A stretch of DNA of 64,000 nucleotides, from contig NZ_KB905379.1 of assembly GCF_000379085.1 (NCBI RefSeq), positions 473,198 to 537,197 of the forward strand, read 5' to 3'. Below the pieces are notes generated by a model that saw only the letters and a program-made list of their open reading frames with translations, ran no database searches and had not been told where the DNA came from. This document shows, piece by piece, positions 2,979 through 50,973 of the stretch (its first letter is position 1; the number at the start of each line of letters is the position of its first letter). The translations under genes and the position numbers were made by a program. The stretch is from Halomicrobium katesii DSM 19301. Its GTDB lineage: Archaea > Halobacteriota > Halobacteria > Halobacteriales > Haloarculaceae.

Positions 2979-4373
2979 CTAGAACGGCCGTTTGCAGACG
3001 ATCGTCTCCTCGCGGCCGGGACCGACGCCGACCGCGTAGATCGGAACGTCGAGTTCGTCGCTGACGTACTCCAGGTAGGTCCGAGCCGTCTCCGGGAGCG
3101 CGTCGTAGCCCTCGTCGGCGATCGCGGCCCAGTCCTGCTCGTCCCACCCCTCGAAGGTGCGGTAGTTGACCGCACACTCGCCCCACCGTTCGGTCGTCGG
3201 GGGCATCGAGAGCAGTTCGTCGCCGTCGAGCGTGTAGGAGTGGCCGACCCGGATCTCGTCCAGTCCCGCGAGCGTGTCGACGTGGTTGACGACGATCCCG
3301 GTGAAGCCGGAGGCCCGCGCGGCGTGGCGAAGCATGGGCATGTCGAGCCAGCCGACGCGGCGCGCGCGGCCGGTGACGGTCCCGTACTCGCCGCCCTCTT
3401 CGCGGATGTAGTGTGCCAGCTCCTCCTCGCTCTGGGGCTCGGTGATGTCGGCCGAGACATCCGGTGACTCACTGTCCTCGTAGCCGGGCGTGTGGCCCTC
3501 GACGCCCGCCAGCTCCGTCGGGAGCGGGCCGGTACCGACGCGTGAGAGGTACGCTTTCACGATTCCGATGACTTCGCCTTGGCCGACCGTGGTCGGACCC
3601 AGGCCGGTCCCGGTACAGGCCCCGCCGGCCGTCGGGTTCGAGGAGGTGACGTAGGGGTAGATGCCGTGGTCGATGTCGATCGAGGTGCCCTGAGCGCCTT
3701 CGAGCATGACGTTCTGGCCGCCGTCGATGGCGTCGTCGAGGAACGAGCCGGCGTTGACGACCATGCCTTCCTCTCGGAGTCGGCGGCCGTACTCGCGGTA
3801 CTGCTCGAAGAGCGGCTCGACCTCGAAGGCCTCGTCGGTCTCGATGCCGAACACGTCCGTCGCGAGGGCACGCTTCTGGGGGACGACGTACTCCAGTCGG
3901 GCCCGGAGGGTCTCGGGATCGAGCAGGTCGCCGACGCGAACGCCGCGCCGGCCCGCCTTGTCCTCGTAGGTCGGGCCGATACCGCGACCGGTCGTCGCCG
4001 CTTCGAGATCACCTTCCTCGCTCTTTGCGTCTTCTTCGATTCCGTCGAGAACGCGGTGGTAGGGGAAAATAACGTGGGCACGAGCAGCCACGCGAACGTC
4101 GGGTTCGATCCCCCGCTCGCGCAGCGCGTCGAGTTCGTCGAACAGCGTCTCGGGGTTGACGACACATCCGTTCCCGAGAACGCCGATCTTCCCGCGGATG
4201 GCTCCGCTCGGAACGAGGGAGAGCTTGTACTCCTCGCCGCCGTCGACGACGGTGTGGCCGGCGTTGTCGCCGCCCTGATAGCGGACGACGATGTCCGCCG
4301 CGTCGCCGTAGACGTCGACGATCCCGCCCTTCCCTTCGTCGCCGAGCTGCGAGCCGACGATGGTTACGGTCAT
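2979..4373 (-). CDS. purA: Adenylosuccinate synthetase
   Basis: This 464-residue enzyme joins IMP and aspartate using GTP, the first committed step from IMP to AMP. The N-terminal signature VGSQLGDEGKGGIVD (P-loop), RYQGGDNAGHTV, the IMP-binding TTGRGIGPTYEDKAGR, GAQGT, and a GTP-specificity loop near VNHVDTLAGLD are all present. The ATG at 4373 is preferred over the TTG one codon earlier because the family begins MTVTIVG. The length is slightly greater than bacterial PurA. The intergenic space to the divergent winged-helix gene holds both promoters. Confidence 0.96.
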   Translation of the reverse strand: MTVTIVGSQLGDEGKGGIVDVYGDAADIVVRYQGGDNAGHTVVDGGEEYKLSLVPSGAIRGKIGVLGNGCVVNPETLFDELDALRERGIEPDVRVAARAHVIFPYHRVLDGIEEDAKSEEGDLEAATTGRGIGPTYEDKAGRRGVRVGDLLDPETLRARLEYVVPQKRALATDVFGIETDEAFEVEPLFEQYREYGRRLREEGMVVNAGSFLDDAIDGGQNVMLEGAQGTSIDIDHGIYPYVTSSNPTAGGACTGTGLGPTTVGQGEVIGIVKAYLSRVGTGPLPTELAGVEGHTPGYEDSESPDVSADITEPQSEEELAHYIREEGGEYGTVTGRARRVGWLDMPMLRHAARASGFTGIVVNHVDTLAGLDEIRVGHSYTLDGDELLSMPPTTERWGECAVNYRTFEGWDEQDWAAIADEGYDALPETARTYLEYVSDELDVPIYAVGVGPGREETIVCKRPF

Positions 4374-4956: not shown

Positions 4957-7527
4957 TTACAGTTCCGGGACCGCGAGGTGGAACTCCTGGTTGCGCGCCT
5001 CGACCAGACAGAGGTGATAGCCGTCCTTGCGCGAGAGGTTGACGAAGCTCTTTCGCTTGTCGCGGCTCAGCAGTCCGCTGGAAGTCGCCTCCTCGGCCGT
5101 TTCGAGCGCAGGCGGTTCGAAGAAGCTCTCGGTGACGAGGAAGGCACCGGCCAGTGACTCGTTCGATGACCCGACCCGTTCGGCCCGCGTGATCAGGTCG
5201 GTCATCATGTCGTCGGTCGCCGGATCGCGGGAGTCGTTGATGTTGGCGACGATCAGCGGATTCCCCATCCGGTCGCGCACGACCACGTCGAACTGCTCCT
5301 GGGAGCGGTGTTGCTCGCCGTCTTCCGTGTACTCGACGGCGATCTGTCCGTTGAGTTCCGCTCTGTCGATCTGTGGCAGCGCGTCGAACAGCTCCGACAT
5401 CGCTTCGGGGTTGCCGGTGTCGCGAATCTCGTAGAGGAGGTTCCTGACGAGCCAGTCGACGAAGCGGTACTGGATGCTCTCGGGCAGGAACGTCTCGAAC
5501 TCCGTGTCGCCGACCGCGGCCGTCGCCGCGTCGAACTGCGTGTGAAACTCCAGCCGGAGATTGTCGTCGACCGCAGATCGGTCGGCGTTCCCGGAGTGGA
5601 CGGCCGCGAGCGTCGCGTCGCCTTTCGAGTTGTAGCGAACGAAGAGGTTTGTCTGGTCGATGGCCTCTCGCTGGCTCAGCCGCGTCTCCGCGGCCGGCAC
5701 GTCGTCGTCTTCGACCGACAGCTCTTCGACGCGCTGTTCGAGCCGTTCGATCTCCGTGCGAGCCTCTTCGAGTTCGGACTGGAGTTGATCGCGCTCGTTC
5801 GCGAGCGTGTCGAGTTCGGACTGGAGCTGGTCGCGCTCGGCCTCGGTCTCTTCGAGAGCCTGTTCGAGCTCTGCGACGCGCTCCGCGTGGGGCTCTGTCG
5901 TGTCCGTCGGCTCGGGCGCTGGTTCGTCCGTCGGCTGGGCTGGCTGGCGATCTGGAGCGTCCGCCGACTGCTGGTCGGCCCATCCCGCCGACTGTCGTTC
6001 GGGCTCGTCTCCCGGCTGGGACCGGCGGCGCTCGGTCGCCTCGGCGGAGCGCTCGGGTTCGCGCGTTCGGTCCGGCTCCGGCTCAGCCGTCGCCGACTGC
6101 TGGTCGGCCGGTGCGCCGGGATGGCGGGACTGGCGACCCTCGGGCTCCGGGTCGCTCTCGACACCGCCGTTCGTCCCGGCCGACGGCTCCGGGTCCGAGC
6201 GCTCGTCGGCGGCCGCGGCCGCGCTCGCGGTGCCGGAGTGGGACGGATCGAGCGACGGGATCGAACGCGTTTCGAGGTCACCGGCACCCGCGGCCGACGG
6301 ATCGTTGGGCGCGGGCGCGACGCCAGTGCCACTCGCGGACTGCTCCGCTGGTTCGGGCTGTCTGCCCGCCTCGAATTCCTCCGAGACGCTGTCGGTGGGC
6401 TGAGGATCGACGGGCTCGCTGGACGCGCGTGTCGCGTTCTCGCCCGCCGGCCGGTCGGTCGCGGGCTGGCTCTGGGTCTCCCGTTCGCGCCGCGTCGGCT
6501 CCCCGGATCTGTCGCCGGCCGGCGTCTGATCGCTCTGGCGTCGGTCGCGGGGACGCTGGTGGCTGTCGGGCGACTGCTCGGGTGTTCGGTTCGGCGGCGA
6601 CTGCTCGGATTCCCCGGACTCGGAGGACGGCGCGGGCGAGTCCGCAGCCGCGTCCGACCGTTCGTCCGTCGACGACGACTCTGACCTGCGTGGCTCGGTC
6701 TGTTCGCGGGCGTCGGCGTCCGCTTCGTGCCGCCGTGTCGTCTCTGTCCCCGTCTTCGCGACGGGGTCCGTTCGGGTGTTCCCGCCGTGTCCCGCCGGCT
6801 CCGCACTCGCGTCGTCTGCGGTGGTGTCCGCTGGCCCGTCGTCGCCCGGCGCTGCCGGCTCGTCTGGGGTGTCCGGGTCCGGAGACGCAGCCGATTCCGG
6901 GGCGGGTTCGTCCGCTGGCGGCTCGTCTGCCGGCGCTTGGCCGGAGACGCTCGCCGTCTCCTCGCTCGACGCCGGCTCGGGCATCGTCGGTTCCGGCACG
7001 TCGACGATCTCGATGTCGACCGGCCGGACCTCGTAGATCCCGACTTCGTCGTTGGCCTGCTCGAAGGCCTCGTCTTCGGTCACGAGCTGGTCGCTGTTGC
7101 CCACCCAGGCGACGCTCATCGAGCGCCCCTGGTGGTAGATCTGGTAGTAGTCGCCCGAGAGGACGTTCTCCGAGAGCTCGACGAAGCCGGTGAATCCGCC
7201 ACTGGAGAGCGTCTGGTCGACCTCGGCGATTGGCGTGTCCTCGGTGTAGTACTTCGCCCTGACCTCGTCGGATCGCTCTTGCATGACTGCCAGCAACGGC
7301 AGTCCGGGATGCGGTGCCTTCCGTGCGGTCCCACCGGCGTCCTCGAAGTCCTCGATCGATCCGTCGAGGATTCCGACGACGTTGCCGTTGAGCATGAACA
7401 GCCGAGACGGACCGGCGACGACGACGCCGGAAAACTCCGAGTCGGCCAGCTCGTGGAGCCCCTCGTACCCACCCGAGAAGGGCACGGTGTCCCACGAGTC
7501 GATCTGCTCGACCGTGCGTGCACTCAT
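4957..7527 (-). CDS. Large protein with disordered core and coiled coil (DUF7527-like)
   Basis: An 856-residue protein in three parts. Residues 1-200 form a conserved globular domain (VVVAGPSRLFMLNGNVVGIL). Residues 210-590 are low-complexity, rich in Pro, Glu, Asp, Ser, Thr, Gln and Arg, and probably disordered. A coiled coil of heptad-like QLQSELDTLANERD repeats (about 590-660) leads to a C-terminal domain of some 200 residues with EQFDVVVRDRMGNPLIV, reminiscent of restriction-endonuclease-like folds. I recall this as the haloarchaeal family DUF7527, function unknown. The ATG at 7527 is chosen over one 29 codons upstream because the extra residues are not family-like. Many long antisense frames across the disordered part are artefacts of its codon bias. 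Confidence 0.7.
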   Translation of the reverse strand: MSARTVEQIDSWDTVPFSGGYEGLHELADSEFSGVVVAGPSRLFMLNGNVVGILDGSIEDFEDAGGTARKAPHPGLPLLAVMQERSDEVRAKYYTEDTPIAEVDQTLSSGGFTGFVELSENVLSGDYYQIYHQGRSMSVAWVGNSDQLVTEDEAFEQANDEVGIYEVRPVDIEIVDVPEPTMPEPASSEETASVSGQAPADEPPADEPAPESAASPDPDTPDEPAAPGDDGPADTTADDASAEPAGHGGNTRTDPVAKTGTETTRRHEADADAREQTEPRRSESSSTDERSDAAADSPAPSSESGESEQSPPNRTPEQSPDSHQRPRDRRQSDQTPAGDRSGEPTRRERETQSQPATDRPAGENATRASSEPVDPQPTDSVSEEFEAGRQPEPAEQSASGTGVAPAPNDPSAAGAGDLETRSIPSLDPSHSGTASAAAAADERSDPEPSAGTNGGVESDPEPEGRQSRHPGAPADQQSATAEPEPDRTREPERSAEATERRRSQPGDEPERQSAGWADQQSADAPDRQPAQPTDEPAPEPTDTTEPHAERVAELEQALEETEAERDQLQSELDTLANERDQLQSELEEARTEIERLEQRVEELSVEDDDVPAAETRLSQREAIDQTNLFVRYNSKGDATLAAVHSGNADRSAVDDNLRLEFHTQFDAATAAVGDTEFETFLPESIQYRFVDWLVRNLLYEIRDTGNPEAMSELFDALPQIDRAELNGQIAVEYTEDGEQHRSQEQFDVVVRDRMGNPLIVANINDSRDPATDDMMTDLITRAERVGSSNESLAGAFLVTESFFEPPALETAEEATSSGLLSRDKRKSFVNLSRKDGYHLCLVEARNQEFHLAVPEL

Positions 7528-7622
7528 TGTAACCCACAAGCCGCATGCGGGACAAATACTTTGCGCCCGGTCTGGCACGACGACTCCGACGGGACTATGT
7601 TTCCTCGCCCGCAAGCGCGCGT

Positions 7623-41024: not shown

Positions 41025-42032
41025 CTACGCATCGTCGAGAAAGTCTCGGCGTCGCTCCGCGCGTTCCCGCTCGGAGCGCTCGTCGTAGTGCTGCTCGAGG
41101 ACATCCGGGGTCGCGTTCGACCGGTCGGACACGACCTCCTCGGGAACGCCCTCCCGTAGCATCCGGGTGATGGCACCACGCCGGACGCTGTGGGGAGACC
41201 GCGACGAGGGGCACTGAGAACCTTGGTACGGTTCCAGTGCCTCGCACTCGTCCTCGTCACGGTCGTGAGGGCAGTCACGACCGACAATACACGGACGAGA
41301 GAGTCGATAGATCGTGTTCCGAATCGTCGCGTTCGCGATCCGGCCGAACCGCGTCGTGATCAGCGGCGATCGTCCGGCATCATCCGTCGTATCCTCACGG
41401 TTGTATTCGATGAAGTCGTCGATCGCCTCGCCGTAGTGTTCGCCGACGACTATCGAGCGCTCCGCGGCGGTCCCGTTCTTGAGCGGCGTGTCAGAATCCG
41501 GGTCGTGGCGAACCTTCAGGAGCAGCGCTTCACTGTCCCAGTCCGAGACGTCCATCGAGCGGAGTGTCCCGATCCGAATACCAGTGTGCCAGAGGATCGC
41601 CATGATGACGTGATCCCGACTCGCGTACCGGAACTTCTCGCAGAACTCCAGGATCCGCTCGGCGCGGTCCTCTTCGAGCTGGACGCTCCGGGACTCGTCT
41701 TCGGCGTCGACGTCCGGGAGCACGACCTTCTCGCGCATCCCTTGCTCGACGGCGTCGATCGTCGCGCAGAACTCCAGAAACACGCGTAGCGTCGCGAGGT
41801 TACTCTTGAGAGTCAGCGTCGTCAGATCCTCACCACGCCAGACGCGGTACGCGTGGAGATCGCGACCCGTGAGTTCGTTCAGGTCGTCGATGTCCTCGAT
41901 CTCGCAGAACTCGACGAACGTGTCGAGTCGGTACTTGTGATTCTGGATCGACTTCTTGGACAGCTCGTGCTTGCGATGTTCGAGATACATCTCCACCGCT
42001 TTGCGCGGCGAGATCGGCTCCAGATCGGTCAC
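41025..42032 (-). CDS. Tyrosine recombinase/integrase (XerC/D-like)
   Basis: A 335-residue integrase. Residues 1-105 form a SAM-like core-binding domain (AVEMYLEHRKHELSKKSIQN). The catalytic domain has the first arginine in LWHTGIRIGTLRSMD, H-x-x-R in SPHSVRRGAITRML and the nucleophile tyrosine in VLEQHYDERS. A CxxD/CEALE zinc-like insertion (CIVGRDCPHDRDEDECEAL) is typical of haloarchaeal integrases. The start is a GTG that overlaps a 20-codon frame by 3 nt. It probably integrates or excises the element at the tRNA-like sequences on either side. Confidence 0.9.
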   Translation of the reverse strand: MTDLEPISPRKAVEMYLEHRKHELSKKSIQNHKYRLDTFVEFCEIEDIDDLNELTGRDLHAYRVWRGEDLTTLTLKSNLATLRVFLEFCATIDAVEQGMREKVVLPDVDAEDESRSVQLEEDRAERILEFCEKFRYASRDHVIMAILWHTGIRIGTLRSMDVSDWDSEALLLKVRHDPDSDTPLKNGTAAERSIVVGEHYGEAIDDFIEYNREDTTDDAGRSPLITTRFGRIANATIRNTIYRLSRPCIVGRDCPHDRDEDECEALEPYQGSQCPSSRSPHSVRRGAITRMLREGVPEEVVSDRSNATPDVLEQHYDERSERERAERRRDFLDDA

Positions 42033-44007: not shown

Positions 44008-44348
44008 CGCCCATCGCCCCCGTCGGCGCGGGCCTGCGGCTCAGCGCTCGACTCGCGGCCGCAGATCGCCGCCACGCGGTCGGCGTGGGTATCGATCGCT
44101 CCGCGGCCCGCGTCGGTCAGCCGGTAGGCGTTCGTCCGGTCGTCGACGGCCTCGGTCTCGATCAGGCCCGCCTCCTCCAGCGTGTTGAGGTTCTGGTACA
44201 GCCGGCTGTGGTTCACGGGGTCGCTGTAGCGCTCGCCCAGCCACGCCCTGATGGCGAGCCCGTAGGGAAGCTCGTCGTCGGCGTCGAGGGCGGCGATGGC
44301 GTGCAGGAGATCGCGCTGGAACCCCGTGCGGTCGAACCACGTCGTCAT
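44004..44348 (-). CDS. PadR-like winged-helix regulator, copy 1
   Basis: A 114-residue regulator. GFQRDLLHAIAALDADDELP, then YGLAIRAWLGE, and the helix-turn-helix NHSRLYQNLNTLEEAGLIET match the PadR pattern. The wing is RTNAYRLTDAG. It is the first gene of the overlapping operon and is nearly identical in its N-terminal 90 residues to the protein at 47043-47378. Its upstream region carries the two-part repeat shared by three loci, which makes self-control or control of the other two loci likely. Confidence 0.8.
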   Translation of the reverse strand: MTTWFDRTGFQRDLLHAIAALDADDELPYGLAIRAWLGERYSDPVNHSRLYQNLNTLEEAGLIETEAVDDRTNAYRLTDAGRGAIDTHADRVAAICGRESSAEPQARADGGDGR

Positions 44349-44425
44349 GCTGCCCCTCCTGTTTCTTGCATACCAGGAGCCTGAACGAGGACGCTTGAAG
44401 GGCTGCGGCGGGCGGGTGACCGAAT
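44128..44425. repeat. Direct repeat copy 1 (partner 47158-47455)
   Basis: Coding and promoter DNA of the PadR-like gene matches the second copy without gaps at a constant offset of 3030 bp. The match is near-perfect over 44170-44425 and fades in the 3' part of the gene. It flanks, with the partner copy, the winged-helix and PIN toxin region. Confidence 0.7.
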
Positions 44426-44811: not shown

Positions 44812-45120
44812 GTGAATATTAACTCCGGGAGTGCTCTTCTTCAAGATGTGCAACCATCCTGGTGGGGAAAATATGATGACATCATTCTGCGGCTCTTAGA
44901 CGATACTGGTGCTGCCCTGCCGCCCCGGGTCGTCGGATTTAACCTCGAATATCGAGAGATAGCATCTCCGCACAGATCGACTGTTAAACGTCGTCTCCAA
45001 CGTCTAGAGGAGAATGGGTATGTTGAGAAAGTCGGTGACGGTGGATACTATATGATTTCCGACAATGGTCGTAAGTATCTACGAGACCATTTTGACTACG
45101 GGCCAGAGACGAAAGCTTAA
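44812..45120 (+). CDS. Phage-type winged-helix regulator (PhiH1-repressor-like)
   Basis: A 102-residue protein in the style of halovirus PhiH1-repressor-like regulators: YDDIILRLLDDTGAALPP, helix-turn-helix around HRSTVKRRLQRLEENGYVE and a wing GDGGYYMISDNGRKYLRD. A GTG at 44848 (VQPSWWGKYDD) would give the usual family N-terminus and is the main alternative start. Its promoter lies between palindromic arms. It is similar to the protein at 48026-48316. Confidence 0.75.
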   Translation: MNINSGSALLQDVQPSWWGKYDDIILRLLDDTGAALPPRVVGFNLEYREIASPHRSTVKRRLQRLEENGYVEKVGDGGYYMISDNGRKYLRDHFDYGPETKA

Positions 45121-45289
45121 ACCTGGAATTCAACCTCTCCACGTATTTCTATCACTACGGCCACCCGTCGGTCGTAGTACTTCACCCCTGCATCCTTCAT
45201 TAATCATTATGGCCCTGTTTGAGAGCTTGAGTCGTACTTGAGGTGCCAGACGAGAAGATTTATACATGGAACCCCAAAATTGAGTTACC

Positions 45290-46282
45290 ATGACTAATCC
45301 CCATTATGGGGAAGCAGAGTTCCTCTGCTACCAAGTGATTAAGCAAGTCCGCGAGAGGTACGGACAATCATGGGACTTGCCGAAAACGGAATTCTACAAA
45401 CTCTGCTATATTGTCGATAGGCGGCTTCAGGAAGAAGATATTGACATTGAGCTATCCACTCACTGGTACCGGTATGGTGGGGTACTGACCACTGATGCCA
45501 TGAATACTGGCTTCTATTCGCTTGAAGAACAGACATGGGGGGAAAACGCGGGTAGCAATGTGCTTATCGCCGACGGCGTAGAAGATTCTGACTTTGACAC
45601 CGACGAAGAAGTAGAACGAGCGATATCAGAGATGTCCGAATCCGTAGTTGATGAATTGGGCCAAGGTTACGGTATCTCTGTCTCACAGGACTACCAATAC
45701 AAGGAGTACGCACCAGATGACTTTGTCCGGAGTCTCCACGAATTTAGAAGTTTTATTCAAGACATTGACGAAGACGATGCTCTAAACAGTGAAGATTATA
45801 TTAGCGGTGTGGATGTCGGATTCAAAGATATAATTGGAGATTCATCACCCGATAAGACTGGCTCTTCAGCATCCTCAGAGACAAATAACCGAATTCGAGA
45901 CCATCTAGATGCTCTATTGGCTGAATATCCCGAGGACAAGTATTCACAGATGGAAGGCTTGTTCCTTGACTGGGAAAACCTCTCATGGCAAATGGCGAAG
46001 AACGGCTTTTACAGCCGCCTTCAGGATTTCATGGAATCTTTCTGGACGACATTTAGCAGGGTAGAACTCCGACCAAAGAACAATCAGCATGTGCCGCTAA
46101 GTATTCGGAGCCAGTGGAATAACCAGATCTCAGACGAGATGGAGTCGTTCGAAAACGAGATCCAAGAGAAGCGTGAAGTCGTGCTGAACAACCGCAGAGA
46201 AACAAATGAGTTAGATATTATTAGCGAGAGCTACAGTGACACAGCACGAGATCTCTTCGACCAACCGCTACAGAACGAATGA
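45290..46282 (+). CDS. Panacea/SocA-like antitoxin candidate
   Basis: A 330-residue protein. The first 170 residues fit a Panacea-type antitoxin domain: EFLCYQVIKQVRERY, FYKLCYIVDRRLQ and HWYRYGGVLTTDAM resemble the family's LYYAD and YGP-x-x-x elements. A long helical C-terminal part (GLFLDWENLSWQMAKNGFY, then ENEIQEKREVVLNNRRETNE) may bind the toxin. A TATA element TTTATAC lies about 26 nt before the ATG (leaderless). It overlaps the PIN gene by 4 nt. I am fairly sure of the domain's general type, less so of its function. Confidence 0.5.
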   Translation: MTNPHYGEAEFLCYQVIKQVRERYGQSWDLPKTEFYKLCYIVDRRLQEEDIDIELSTHWYRYGGVLTTDAMNTGFYSLEEQTWGENAGSNVLIADGVEDSDFDTDEEVERAISEMSESVVDELGQGYGISVSQDYQYKEYAPDDFVRSLHEFRSFIQDIDEDDALNSEDYISGVDVGFKDIIGDSSPDKTGSSASSETNNRIRDHLDALLAEYPEDKYSQMEGLFLDWENLSWQMAKNGFYSRLQDFMESFWTTFSRVELRPKNNQHVPLSIRSQWNNQISDEMESFENEIQEKREVVLNNRRETNELDIISESYSDTARDLFDQPLQNE

Positions 46283-46974
46283 CAGGCAGTACGCAAGTTC
46301 TTGATACTGGTGTCCTCGTCGGTATCGCAGTGGCTCATGATCAACATCATGGAAAATGTTTGGAGTTCGTCCTTGAGACCGATGAAGTCTCGTACGCTAC
46401 TCCGACTGTCGGGAATGAATTTCGGAGTAAGCTACCAGAGGTCCGTGACAGATTAAGCAGGGATATCAAACGCCACAGGAGTTCTTTGGCGAAACAAATC
46501 AGCAAAAAGCGTCTGAACAGAACCGACCTGGTACAGATCCGTGAGCAAATATTAGATACTGCTCTAGATGCTCATCGGTTCCTCTTTGAGTTTTATGATC
46601 AATTAGCTCAGCAAGGAGAGATCAAGCGAGAAGACCTCATGGACCGACTCTCAGACATGGCGACAGAGGTACATGAGGATGCCGCAAAGGAGCATGGAGG
46701 GTTCAACACCCTAGTTTCTGCATGGTCGGGAGGGGTAGATAACTATAGTAAAATAGAGGAAGAGCTGCTGATCTGTGAGGGTGACGATCCTGATGTGTGT
46801 TTAGAGGCCCACCATATTGCTGTAACTCTCGGAGGCGAAACTGAACTGGGTACAACAAACCCAAACGATTTTATCAAACAGCAAAAGGGAGAACCAGAAG
46901 AAAGAAAAGAAAATATTCTCCGTCTCACAGCCCTGTCGGATGTTCGAGATCTGTCAATAGGTAGGTACCCGTAA
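46279..46974 (+). CDS. PIN-domain-like nuclease, candidate toxin
   Basis: A 231-residue protein with PIN-fold signs: VLDTGVLVGIAVAHDQHHGK (first acidic site and H/D following), ATPTVGNEF (second acidic site), a long helical insert, and VCLEAHHIAVTLGGETELGT followed by NPNDF (third and fourth acidic sites, with Glu where Asp is common). PIN proteins are Mg-dependent ribonucleases and frequent toxins. The helical insert (about 60-150) is longer than in VapC. The ATGA overlap with the Panacea-like gene points to a toxin-antitoxin pair. Confidence 0.55.
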   Translation: MTGSTQVLDTGVLVGIAVAHDQHHGKCLEFVLETDEVSYATPTVGNEFRSKLPEVRDRLSRDIKRHRSSLAKQISKKRLNRTDLVQIREQILDTALDAHRFLFEFYDQLAQQGEIKREDLMDRLSDMATEVHEDAAKEHGGFNTLVSAWSGGVDNYSKIEEELLICEGDDPDVCLEAHHIAVTLGGETELGTTNPNDFIKQQKGEPEERKENILRLTALSDVRDLSIGRYP

Positions 46975-47042: not shown

Positions 47043-47378
47043 CTAACTACCCCCGGTTAGTGGTCGCAGTTCGCGCTGTGACGTTCCGAACGAGATCGCA
47101 GCCACGCGCTGGACGTGGCGCTCGAATAGATCGCGTCCCTCTTCGGTCAGGCGGTAGGCGTTCGTCCGGCCGTCGGCGGCCGCTGTTTCGACGAGGCCCG
47201 CCTCTTCCAGCGCGTTGAGGTTCTGGTACAGCCGGCTGTGGTTCACGGGGTCGCTGTAGCGCTCGCTCAGCCACTCCTTGAGCGCGAGCCCGTAGGGCAG
47301 CTCGTCGTCGGCGTCGAGGGCGGCGACGGCGTGCAGGAGATCGCGCTGGAACCCCGTGCGGTCGAACCACGTCGTCAT
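47043..47378 (-). CDS. PadR-like winged-helix regulator, copy 2
   Basis: A 111-residue paralogue of the regulator at 44004-44348: same start MTTWFDRTGFQRDLLHA, same HTH (NHSRLYQNLNALEEAGLVET), but a different C-terminus (RELRPLTGGS). It is not followed by the operon that copy 1 leads. The start is the ATG at 47378; the longer frame upstream runs through repeat DNA. Copies were probably made by recent duplication. Confidence 0.75.
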   Translation of the reverse strand: MTTWFDRTGFQRDLLHAVAALDADDELPYGLALKEWLSERYSDPVNHSRLYQNLNALEEAGLVETAAADGRTNAYRLTEEGRDLFERHVQRVAAISFGTSQRELRPLTGGS

Positions 47379-47455
47379 GCTGCCACTCCTGTTGCGTGCA
47401 TACCAGGAGCCTGAACGAGGACGCTTGAAAGGCTGCGGCGGGCGGGTGACTGAAT
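47158..47455. repeat. Direct repeat copy 2 (partner 44128-44425)
   Basis: It aligns with copy 1 at a constant +3030 bp offset, including the promoter CCAGGAGCCTGAACGAGGAC. Between the copies lie the palindromic operator, the winged helix and the Panacea-like/PIN pair. Confidence 0.7.
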
Positions 47456-47974: not shown

Positions 47975-48025
47975 AAAGTGATTTGAAACAGGTGGGATTA
48001 TTTTACGTCGAAATGACGAACGACT

Positions 48026-48316
48026 GTGTCACGCCGCCATCGAGCAAAGTGGATGACTGGTAGAGACGATATCATCCTCGAATTCCTCGACGAGAGCGGC
48101 GCAATTCTGAACAAGAAGGCGCTGGAGATCAATCTTAACGCAGAGGAAGCTGGAATCTCGTACTCTACGATTCAGCGACGACTTCCTAAACTGGAGGAAA
48201 CTGGGCTCGTCGAACTGGTGATCGAAGAGGGGACTTGGTATCGGATCACGGACCGTGGCCGGTCGTATCTACAGGGCGAGGCCGATCTGCGGGACGAGTC
48301 CGAGCCGGAGAGCTAA
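48026..48316 (+). CDS. Phage-type winged-helix regulator, second
   Basis: A 96-residue protein of the same kind as 44812-45120: TGRDDIILEFLDESGAILNK, helix-turn-helix SYSTIQRRLPKLEETGLVE, wing EEGTWYRITDRGRSYLQGE. The GTG at 48026 has the better TATA distance; ATG 48053 is an alternative. It is the natural local regulator of the unknown gene cluster that begins 118 nt downstream. Confidence 0.75.
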   Translation: MSRRHRAKWMTGRDDIILEFLDESGAILNKKALEINLNAEEAGISYSTIQRRLPKLEETGLVELVIEEGTWYRITDRGRSYLQGEADLRDESEPES

Positions 48317-48433
48317 ACAGTGATCGCAGTTCTGAAGGCGGATTCGCCAAATAACTGGCAATCATGAGGCTGATCTGGCACCTTCAAACAATTATCCGAA
48401 AGACACTTTTTGCAACCAAATTATTACCACGTT

Positions 48434-49123
48434 ATGAAAGCTGGGATTGTCGGACTCTTGGATTCGCCTTCAGAGACTATTGAAGCAGTAGACGGAATCA
48501 CGACACAAGACGGTCGTGAGTACCGGTACTGTATCGAACCACGAGAGACGTTTACTGATGCTCCGGTAAATGGCGTGATCCAGACAGGAGAGGCAGCGAT
48601 GGAAATCCCGAAAGAAGTGGAGCGTGTCGAGATTGAAGACGGAACAATCACTCGGAAGACAACTGTAAGAACCGAAACCAAGCATACAGAATGGCTCTTG
48701 ATTCCTGACGAAATCGTCGTCGTGGAAAACAGTGAGGGTCGTTTCTTCCATGATCTGCTTGCGAGTGAATTCGGATGGCGTGCCAACCGAGCACAATTCG
48801 ATCTAACTTCGATGCGCTCGGATTACGAGGAAACCCAGCTGTGGCAAGTTGGGTTCTACGATCACTTGGGCGAAGCTCAGAAAGGTGTTGTATACGGTGA
48901 AGACGTACTTGATGATCAGGATCTTGGAAGCGCTTTGGATGATTCTCAGATCAACCAGTTAGGACTGGTCTACCAGCGTGACGGCGATACTGTAAAGGTG
49001 ACACTCGCAGAGAGTGGTTACGTAGAATTATATCAGCCATCTGGTTTTGATGCCGATGATTTTGCTGTGTATATCCAAGAAGAAATTAGGAAATACGTCA
49101 GTGGAATCCATACTGAAAAGTAG
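48434..49123 (+). CDS. Unknown protein, first gene of AT-rich cluster
   Basis: A 229-residue protein starting MKAGIVGLLDSPSETIEAVD. It looks soluble and mixed alpha/beta; features are EHTEWLLIPDEIVVVE-like strands (KHTEWLLIPDEIVVVENSEG), FHDLLASEFGWRAN and a helical end YIQEEIRKYVSG. No family is recognised. The codon use is clearly more AT-rich than in chromosomal genes. The ATG is 24 nt inside a frame that begins with TTG. A defence role is only a possibility from its setting. Confidence 0.6.
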   Translation: MKAGIVGLLDSPSETIEAVDGITTQDGREYRYCIEPRETFTDAPVNGVIQTGEAAMEIPKEVERVEIEDGTITRKTTVRTETKHTEWLLIPDEIVVVENSEGRFFHDLLASEFGWRANRAQFDLTSMRSDYEETQLWQVGFYDHLGEAQKGVVYGEDVLDDQDLGSALDDSQINQLGLVYQRDGDTVKVTLAESGYVELYQPSGFDADDFAVYIQEEIRKYVSGIHTEK

Positions 49124-49179
49124 TTCCAGATAGAAAACAAATAATAAATGTTTAGTTATCTCAGTATAGTCTTCACTCT

Positions 49180-50262
49180 ATGAGTGACGCCTCGGACCTA
49201 GACGAGAAATTTGAGTATGACGGTCGGCTGGTTTTCAATGGACTGTACTTAGATGCTGAGGACCAAGCACCGTTTAGCTCAAAAGAAGATTTACTCAATG
49301 AACTTCCTGAATTTGAGCAAGGAGTCCCACGAAAACCAGGTAGAGGTTTCAAAGATCTGAGCCTTGAGGAGTGGAACGAACGCTACAGTGAACTTCCAAG
49401 AGAGCTTGAGGAAGTCCTTGACCAGTCATGGGATGTTGAGTACAAGCACGAAAAGTTCGATACACCGGACGACTTAGTGGATACTGATGGTAATCCCGTT
49501 AAGGGGTGGGTCGCCGAGGACTGGTCAGCATATGTATACTGGTATCCGGGAGAGTTTTTAATCATCCAGGCTAGCCAATCGAAACTAAATGAAGTTGAGG
49601 ATAAACTATTCCCTGTTGTTGGTCGCACAAACTTCGAAGTGAATGACAGCGGAGCAGAAAATGGCGATGACGGAAACAGTGATAGCAATGGTGCAGAAGA
49701 GGGACTTTTCAGCCCAGAGTTCCTGCAGTGGCTAGTCTGGAAATACGACACCCTTGGTAGTGCCTCGAAATTGGGAATAAATGAACTCACAGACGCAGCT
49801 ATGTCTGGAAATCTAGGGGATTTCGGTCGTACAAATGAAGTAAGCGAATCAGATAATATTACAAACTCTCATCCAATCATCGCTGGGATGCTAGAGAACA
49901 GAAAATTCGAAGAAATTGAGGGTGTATTCGAGATTCATGATCACGAGATAGATGCTCAAATTTACAGAGACGGTAGTATCCGGGTTATGGCACAGGAGGC
50001 CATTGGGGATGCTACGCAATACGTACGGATCCTGTTGGCTAATTTGTTCATGAAGCGCGTGCTTGAAGTCTATCTTCAGTGGCGATCCATGCCACCAGAG
50101 GAAAAGTACGTTGATCCGGAGTACTTCAAAGATCTGCATGAGAAGGCAAAGGATATGCCCGAAGCAGCGACATACGACTTTGGGTTTGAATCGTTAGTAC
50201 TTCACTACGCAAACCTCCGGAATGAAGATCCAGGAGACTACGACTGGGATTTCGAGACGTAA
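49180..50262 (+). CDS. Unknown protein, second gene of AT-rich cluster
   Basis: A 360-residue acidic protein. Residues 1-150 hold WSAYVYWYPGEFLIIQAS and a strand-rich pattern. Residues 155-180 are a low-complexity acidic linker (NDSGAENGDDGNSD). The C-terminal half begins FSPEFLQWLVWKYDTLGSAS and ends FESLVLHYANLRNED, suggesting a helical second domain. No motif names a function. It has a TATA-like AATAATAAATG upstream, so it may have its own promoter. Confidence 0.6.
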   Translation: MSDASDLDEKFEYDGRLVFNGLYLDAEDQAPFSSKEDLLNELPEFEQGVPRKPGRGFKDLSLEEWNERYSELPRELEEVLDQSWDVEYKHEKFDTPDDLVDTDGNPVKGWVAEDWSAYVYWYPGEFLIIQASQSKLNEVEDKLFPVVGRTNFEVNDSGAENGDDGNSDSNGAEEGLFSPEFLQWLVWKYDTLGSASKLGINELTDAAMSGNLGDFGRTNEVSESDNITNSHPIIAGMLENRKFEEIEGVFEIHDHEIDAQIYRDGSIRVMAQEAIGDATQYVRILLANLFMKRVLEVYLQWRSMPPEEKYVDPEYFKDLHEKAKDMPEAATYDFGFESLVLHYANLRNEDPGDYDWDFET

Positions 50263-50319
50263 CAAAAAACTATCGCAACTGGTATGCGTATCGCAGTCTA
50301 AAGCTTAAATCAGCTACCC

Positions 50320-50973
50320 ATGGCAGTTGACAGCGTCCGCCGTCTTTCGGAACGCGGGGTTCAACAGCAACTGCCATTTGAACGGAATACTCAGTTTGAT
50401 TTGGTGGAGGAAGATTCGGTTACGGCAATTGATCTAATTGGCAACACAGACATTGGTCCGTATCCATTTGTAAACCAAGCGCGAAGATACTGGAGTTTTG
50501 AGTTTACAACGGATCCGATGTTTGGTTCCCCGAAGTCGGTCTCTGGTGTGCTTGAAGTTCGCGAAGGTTCAGGATTCGTGTTCTTGATCCTTGATCAAGA
50601 TACACCGAAACCAGATACTATCTTTTCGGAGCTTCGCGATTCTACACAAACAGATTTTCCGATAGAAACAGACTTCTCACCCACCTACAAATCGGTTTGT
50701 GATTTTATTAGAAGTTCAAGCAGCATTGTCAAGGTAGATTCTCCAACGTCAAGGAATCCCAAAGAAAGGATCCAACAAGGAGAGAATATTCCGGTAGAAG
50801 TGGCTCGCCTCCGATTCGAACATGAGGAAAGTCACTCAATCACCTATTCAGATGCTCAACTCAGTATTCCAATAGACACTGAAGAGGGAGCATTAGTAGA
50901 AAGTGTGGCAAGAGAATATTCATTTCGAGAATATGTAGTTCAAAAGTTTGAATCAGCATTCACTCAAGAATAG
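50320..50973 (+). CDS. Unknown protein, third gene of AT-rich cluster
   Basis: A 217-residue protein, MAVDSVRRLSERGVQQQLPF, with mostly strand-like composition (YWSFEFTTDPMFGSPKSVSG, VLEVREGSGFVFLILDQDTP). The end is helical (SFREYVVQKFESAFTQE). It has no membrane segment or signal. It is followed by the next gene after 3 nt, so those two form one unit. Confidence 0.6.
   Translation: MAVDSVRRLSERGVQQQLPFERNTQFDLVEEDSVTAIDLIGNTDIGPYPFVNQARRYWSFEFTTDPMFGSPKSVSGVLEVREGSGFVFLILDQDTPKPDTIFSELRDSTQTDFPIETDFSPTYKSVCDFIRSSSSIVKVDSPTSRNPKERIQQGENIPVEVARLRFEHEESHSITYSDAQLSIPIDTEEGALVESVAREYSFREYVVQKFESAFTQE

Follow-up and report, generated by a model that had tools for sequence, protein, structure and literature searches.

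Panacea domains are known for pairing with dozens of unrelated toxins, and the VapC toxins, which belong to the PIN family, are RNases that stop translation. We analysed here a stretch of 64,000 nucleotides (nt) of Halomicrobium katesii DSM 19301 (hereafter the window; contig NZ_KB905379.1, positions 473,198 to 537,197), in which two adjacent genes, A and B, encode a Panacea-like protein and a PIN-like protein respectively. The A-B pair is probably a type II toxin-antitoxin module, B being the PIN toxin and A a Panacea-like antitoxin with a C-terminal neutraliser, and the unit is best viewed as an accessory element serving addiction or, perhaps, defence against viruses. For the characterised PanA antitoxins, neutralisation is ascribed either to the Panacea domain or to an added domain, Panacea being then thought to act as a sensor (available text of PMC10440598). 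The case of MqsR with PanA, given in the same text, shows that a Panacea antitoxin associated with a nuclease toxin is of a known kind (PMC10440598); what sets A-B apart is the extended PIN-like partner, the C-terminal domain of A, the breadth of the family in archaea and its loyalty to one toxin family. Neither the pairing of Panacea with an extended PIN-like protein nor the other three features were found in the open-licence literature searched, though the supplementary toxin tables of PMC8832971 could list such a pair.

With PanAT pairs, A-B has in common a Panacea-like domain in the first gene, a tightly packed second gene, mobility and scattered occurrence, as well as extra domains on the antitoxin like those of characterised PanA (PMC10440598, available text). 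It differs from them by the helical C-terminal domain proper to A, by the position of A below the Pfam model PF13274 and by a PIN-like toxin; moreover the A proteins of the loci read have a single toxin family as partner, whereas PanAT swaps partners. With VapBC it shares a PIN-like protein that has Asp at motif I and, at motifs III and IV, either an acidic residue or Asn, and a presumed antitoxin encoded first. A VapBC pair nevertheless consists of a VapC of about 130-145 amino acids (aa) and a VapB, while B has 231 aa including about 95 inserted ones (most haloarchaeal PIN proteins read have 126-144 aa) and its partner is a Panacea-like protein of 330 aa, not of the VapB type.

The association of the two genes was followed in 391 genomes of the class Halobacteria and in 294 genomes drawn from the phylum, which we take to be Halobacteriota in GTDB. 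Searches of the 391 genomes (expectation value E up to 1e-3) recovered A in 47 genomes; for B they gave 35, some of the matches being ordinary PIN proteins. With a profile built from 24 A proteins, matches were obtained at E up to 1e-5 in 60 of these genomes, belonging to 34 of 86 genera, and at E up to 1e-3 in 27 of the phylum genomes, 16 of which lie outside the class. Judged by this profile the A family extends well beyond Halobacteria, which adds to what the first-pass annotation of this DNA had proposed.

Every A locus recovered with this profile was examined, which made 83 loci from 76 genomes (65 of the class, 18 from outside it). In 74 of them (61/65 and 13/18 respectively) the gene that directly follows A on the same strand is B, a conserved adjacent pair as expected of PanAT. 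A chance overlap of two open reading frames (ORFs) is ruled out by this conservation and linkage. The nine A loci without B are three solitary ones (L007, L008, L013), one at a contig edge (L248), four from a single genus outside the class (L166, L251, L252, L258) and L163. The count of loci with B includes damaged ones: B is partial in L003, L241 and L250, A is split in L029, and the last B residues of L010, examined by eye, are out of frame relative to the related proteins. The B frame of L168 has no ATG, GTG or TTG in about its first 90 codons.

Loss of a partner is one-sided: A is kept without B at eight loci, not counting the contig edge, and no intact strong B is found without A in the 391 genomes. 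Among the B matches in the 391 genomes 24 reach E up to 1e-9, of which 21 are intact, and A lies beside all 21, as expected of a type II toxin, which is not kept without its antitoxin. The three broken ones are a fragment without A (genome G175, locus L172), L003 beside an intact A, and L010. Six of the 13 weaker matches were examined: five are ordinary VapC-like proteins and one is a true pair (G232, L174). Such one-sided loss fits a harmful B. In a separate collection of named genomes B accompanies A at 11 of 12 loci, several of which are the same as in the class set, the exception being L110.

The pairwise distances of A and B are closely correlated (Mantel r 0.976 for 25 pairs, all within the class and near-identical copies included; none of 5000 permutations as high; L003, L007, L008, L013 and L029 excluded), and thus no partner exchange is visible in these 25 pairs. 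At seven loci, which represent no fewer than three families, the A-B unit, over 1.77-1.97 kb, is 90-94% identical in all 21 pairwise comparisons, and these loci have no other common block longer than 150 nt (for L018 and L022, within 1.5-kb flanks only). Between haloarchaea, A and B thus travel together as a two-gene cassette. Both of its genes are under purifying selection, the mean ratio of non-synonymous to synonymous substitution rates (dN/dS) at the seven loci being 0.16 for A and 0.14 for B. Linkage, gene order, co-divergence, mobility and one-sided loss, all of them read from sequences, fit the toxin-antitoxin pairing that the first-pass annotation had put forward.

The same annotation had recognised a SocA/Panacea-like N-terminus in A, and profile comparisons allow A to be firmly assigned as a divergent Panacea-like protein carrying a second domain. 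With hhalign the profile of 24 A proteins matches, over the first half of A, a profile of 22 haloarchaeal Panacea proteins at 93.6% (E 2.1e-7); the reversed profile gives 0.2% and 50 column shuffles at most 2.0%. The 22 proteins come from 25 loci collected with PF13274, two duplicates and one protein with a long N-terminal extension being excluded. When four distant homologues are added to A (three from outside the class), its N-terminal half matches Panacea at 96.6% and its C-terminal half at 0.1%. Two distant homologues, L168 and L171, are above the Pfam Panacea cut-off (36.4 and 45.7 bits for 25.7 required); both adjoin a B relative, and it is chiefly through the C-terminal domain that they resemble the A family, the C-terminal half of L171 being found by the A-family C-domain profile at E 1.3e-6 (0.42 for the best of 1000 decoys). 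The Panacea consensus Y-G-P-x-S after the second helix is absent from the window protein, which has Y-R-Y-G-G-V: the motif W59-Y60-R-Y62-G63-G occupies the place of Y-G-P, and the distant homologues L164 and L165 carry a classical Y-G-P-Y-S where the window has Y-G-G-V. The SocA_Panacea model (PF13274) matches neither the window A (E up to 1) nor, at E up to 0.1, any member of the set of 24 A proteins.

An AlphaFold2 model of A built from 13 sequences has a mean predicted local distance difference test (pLDDT) of 74.7 and a predicted template modelling score (pTM) of 0.65. With VIA-align the best match of residues 6-158 is 7yk3_D (Z 10.1, root mean square deviation 4.7, 147 residues aligned), ahead of a runner-up at Z 7.9; the lower rows mostly cover residues 142-269. 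A profile of Panacea proteins that did not include A retrieves 7yk3_B (E 6.8e-6). Since the Panacea profile and the A model pick the same 7yk3 chain, sequence and structure suggest a common fold. In BFVD the A model retrieves a Panacea protein at rank 4 (E 1.4). The 7yk3 chain, from M. tuberculosis, is named DNA ADP-ribosyl glycohydrolase and is presumably the C-terminal half of DarG. What relates A to DarTG is this best fit among the solved structures aligned, together with a weak match of the A homologue L164 to the PADLOC model of DarG (171-239 of 329, E 0.0027); in contrast to DarTG, no macrodomain is found in A with Pfam and the partner is PIN-like, not DarT.

B appears to be a PIN-like protein, as had been proposed, though its sequence supports this less firmly than that of A supports Panacea. 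The B profile matches 15 haloarchaeal PIN/VapC proteins at 89.4% (E 2.1e-6; no shuffle exceeds 0.9%); these are 15 of the 22 PIN-type proteins extracted, and four of the 15 had been recruited by B itself. We consequently also used two reduced sets, one lacking these four (11 left) and the other lacking in addition a fifth close PIN protein (10 left). Against them a wider B profile scores 58.2% and 48.2%, for at most 0.3% and 0.4% in 50 shuffles. The match is confined to the first half of B, since an insertion of about 95 residues precedes motif III. When the insert columns are removed it spans all motifs (88.7-92.3% with four choices of cuts), with 73.9% against the first reduced set and, over the N-terminal part only, 48.6% against the second. 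The best Pfam scores of the window B are below gathering (PIN_8, 14.1 bits vs 26.1; PIN_3, 14.8 vs 27); its homologues reach at best E 0.001 with the PIN models of Pfam and, in another set, 20.2 bits vs 23.6 required.

The insert, between motifs II and III, is the helical one noticed at first: residues 61-130 of the B model form a mostly helical block with pLDDT of 69-91. At the four D/E/D/D sites of PIN domains the window protein has D9, E47, E176 and N194. Position 176 is acidic and position 194 Asn or Asp in all 26 aligned B proteins, the alignment and profile of the motif, insert and long-PIN comparisons leaving out the truncated L003. The Glu that had been pointed out at a site normally occupied by Asp is indeed residue 176; within the alignment it is shared by the window, L002 and L011, and outside it by L118 and L111. 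Among long PIN domains the B profile weakly matches PIN_12 (56.7%) and PIN_8 (43.9%). HARP (PIN_5) was rejected as a source of B: the score against 17 PIN_5 proteins is 0.7%, and shuffles reach 1.1%. In one B clade (L012, L014, L015, L017, L019, L020, L024) motif I reads Asp-Lys-Gly and the Glu of motif II is replaced by Ile or Val; judging from these residues the clade may rely on a different catalytic set or lack activity, despite the purifying selection on close copies.

The second domain of A, which the first-pass annotation did not describe, is conserved and helical (helices 192-212, 219-237, 241-263 and 270-304 of the model), and its hidden Markov model (HMM) recovers 4 of 5 distant homologues tested. 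The tail that follows is kept in the partnered A proteins of the main group and is lacking in the solitary A proteins L007, L008 and L013, i.e. a loss seen in three proteins, two of them from one genus. Because this C-terminal half is special to the A family and its tail is lost in three solitary A, it is probably the neutralising half, and a likelier neutraliser than the Panacea-like domain. We propose that A would be translated first from the shared message and would then bind B; with A first and B coupled through the overlap, A would be available before B. As for B, it would be a ribonuclease of the PIN family bearing a helical insert; in free form it would arrest growth by cleaving an RNA of the translation machinery. 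The C-terminal domain and tail of A probably cover the active site of B or its insert, and the N-terminal Panacea-like half is probably a folded platform or the sensor of a trigger. Toxicity, RNA target, A-B binding, the location of neutralisation in A and a role in defence are all predictions.

A broader reading, which we put forward tentatively and would not yet back over its contrary, is that A belongs to a hidden lineage of Panacea antitoxins within one archaeal phylum, loyal to an insert-bearing PIN toxin, the C-terminal domain neutralising and Panacea sensing. Such a lineage could have been missed because most of its members are below the Pfam cut-off: according to the available part of Kurata et al. 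2022 (PMC8832971), PanA proteins were collected using Pfam gathering cut-offs, a survey from which the A proteins would have escaped. Neutralisation by a C-terminal domain of its own would explain its loyalty to one toxin family. This loyal archaeal branch, set against the partner swapping seen elsewhere, offers a natural comparison of what makes the domain promiscuous, and the A family a clean test of Panacea as a sensor when another domain neutralises. A-B also adds a candidate to the toxin-antitoxin or defence modules.

Several results weigh against taking A-B for a Panacea antitoxin and a PIN toxin. Neither protein has a Pfam or NCBIfam family above cut-off. For A, the main subfamily matches Panacea at 92.9% and the distant one at 58.5%, the A-family N-terminal profile does not find the N-terminal half of L171, the Z of 10.1 is below the 13 advised by the tool for helical models (under which a match may be a mere common arrangement), Foldseek alone gives an E of 0.32, and the solitary A of L110 retains its tail. 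For B, the score falls to 63.8% (E 6.6e-5) and 37.3% (E 3.5e-4) against the reduced sets of 11 and 10 PIN proteins, and the main and distant subfamilies score 51.3% and 9.3%; the C-terminal motifs alone give 1.1%, not above shuffles (up to 2.9%), position 47 of motif II is Ile in 7 of 26 proteins, and the window itself has Glu at motif III and Asn at motif IV. The model of B is poor overall (pLDDT 55), and its fold-search lists contain no PIN domain, which from such a model says nothing either way. The profile and structure check called for by the first-pass annotation thus had a mixed outcome: both profiles exceed their controls and A finds 7yk3_D as best fold, but the structural half gave nothing for B. 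It could be supposed from this that the resemblances to Panacea and PIN, or to PIN alone, are convergent matches of helices and short motifs in a module of some other function, all the more so as the window proteins lack a curated family match, the B score depends in part on the PIN proteins chosen, the C-terminal motifs are not significant alone and the B model finds no PIN. This seems to us quite improbable, given that the shuffled and reversed controls are low, that Panacea is matched by the N-terminal half of A and not by its C-terminal half, that two distant homologues exceed the Pfam Panacea cut-off, and that in 26 of 26 B proteins Asp9 is invariant and positions 176 and 194 are always Asp, Glu or Asn.

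Two other explanations accept the domains and change the roles. A could be the sensor of a two-protein effector of virus defence, switching on a B that is inactive alone. The large size and two domains of A agree with this, as does the scattered, mobile, low-GC (guanine plus cytosine) nature of the accessory unit, and the authors of PMC10440598, in the text available, favour a sensory Panacea where a separate domain neutralises. We consider it unlikely, since the one-sided loss (no intact strong B without A among 24 in the 391 genomes) suits a harmful B, and PADLOC returned no match for A and, for B, just a weak one to QatA (E 0.022). A-B could also process RNA in a regulated way, as a pair whose function is in housekeeping or stress and is neither selfish nor defensive, to which the purifying selection on both genes and the solitary A found in a common transporter - A - Rieske setting on two Halorussus plasmids would correspond. 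The patchy presence of the family in the class (60/391 genomes and 34/86 genera), the mobility of the cassette and its low GC beside high-GC flanks make this very improbable. A toxin-antitoxin module is the explanation that we consider probable.

A and B are head-to-tail ORFs sharing an ATGA, exactly as first annotated (Table 1). The TATA box of that annotation is present: a TTTATA begins 31 nt 5' of the A start, which fits a leaderless haloarchaeal transcript, and from its sequence and position it may be the leaderless promoter of A-B. Among 29 other starts, each taken as the first start codon of its frame, a looser TATA pattern occurs only in L002 and L028, at differing distances.

Table 1. 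Positions in the window of the A-B genes and of the features discussed.
Feature	Position	Strand	Remarks
TATA-like hexamer TTTATA	45259..45264	+	31 to 26 nt before the A start codon; putative promoter
Gene A	45290..46282	+	330 aa; predicted antitoxin, Panacea-like N-terminal domain and C-terminal helical domain
Panacea-like domain, A residues 6-158	45305..45763	+	hhalign to Panacea proteins; fold match 7yk3_D
Linker, A residues 164-192	45779..45865	+	pLDDT below 50, low confidence
Helical C-terminal domain, A residues 192-304	45863..46201	+	Conserved; model helices and C-domain HMM
C-terminal tail, A residues 300-330	46187..46279	+	Motif L-D-x-x-S-x-S-Y-S
ATGA overlap	46279..46282	+	Stop of A, start of B
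Gene B	46279..46974	+	231 aa; PIN-like nuclease, predicted toxin
B Asp9, PIN motif I	46303..46305	+	Asp in 26/26 aligned B proteins
B Glu47, PIN motif II	46417..46419	+	Glu in 15/26
Helical insert, B residues 55-150	46441..46728	+	Absent from VapC-type PIN domains
B Glu176, PIN motif III	46804..46806	+	Asp in 23/26, Glu in 3
B Asn194, PIN motif IV	46858..46860	+	Asn in 13/26, Asp in 13/26

At locus L163 a 147-aa ORF follows A (reverse strand, 3203-3643) and may be a swapped partner. It looks PIN-like by eye but was rejected as such and not counted, its score being 3.6 bits and five shuffles scoring higher.

Among 72,556 plasmid records A was found in 4 and B in 1; these four records annotate the module proteins as hypothetical. 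On the plasmid of Halobacterium hubeiense the gene after A is a B relative (G067) that is below the threshold of the plasmid search. On that of Halococcus dombrowskii (L118) a full-length B frame is open at 6896-7591, where the record has only a hypothetical protein at 7250-7594. The plasmids of two Halorussus species carry a solitary A (L120, 4980-5930; L121, 4977-5906) in a common setting, between an oligopeptide transporter and a Rieske protein. Four scans of viral contigs gave no relative of A-B, and phage records, searched with B alone, no relative of B.

PDC-M19, a candidate defence system of PADLOC, resembles A in one part: the N-terminal part of PDC-M19A matches the A homologues L164 and L165. 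It was rejected as the same system, only this part being matched. In three loci (L261, L264, L267) the C-terminal part of PDC-M19A and its partner gene both differ from those of A, and the A and B profiles match no ORF of six PDC-M19 loci scanned. In these same three loci PDC-M19A combines, by eye, a Panacea-type N-terminal part with a DUF488-type domain, and a conserved partner gene follows it, making another Panacea-linked candidate system.

The contig that carries the A-B pair of the window measures 644 kb, and the genome 3.6 Mb. GC in 500-base windows is 45-48% across A-B, 68-69% immediately upstream and 64% immediately downstream, and a second low-GC stretch starts near 48000. The module is bracketed by two direct repeats of 300 nt (44063-44362 and 47093-47392) that are 89% identical, each holding a copy of a PadR-like gene on the minus strand; a third copy, 73% identical, is on the other contig. 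These repeats could serve as recombination sites for such cassettes. The second low-GC stretch contains three plus-strand genes (48410-50973; 237, 360 and 217 aa), none of which reaches a Pfam cut-off or matches PADLOC at E up to 0.1. This is another unexplained cassette, and a tyrosine integrase gene (41025-42032) lies some kilobases away. Each of the two low-GC stretches, that of A-B and that of these three genes, opens with a small winged-helix protein (44812-45120 and 48026-48316 respectively), the two having similar Pfam matches, which suggests a repeated plan: PadR gene, winged helix, cargo.

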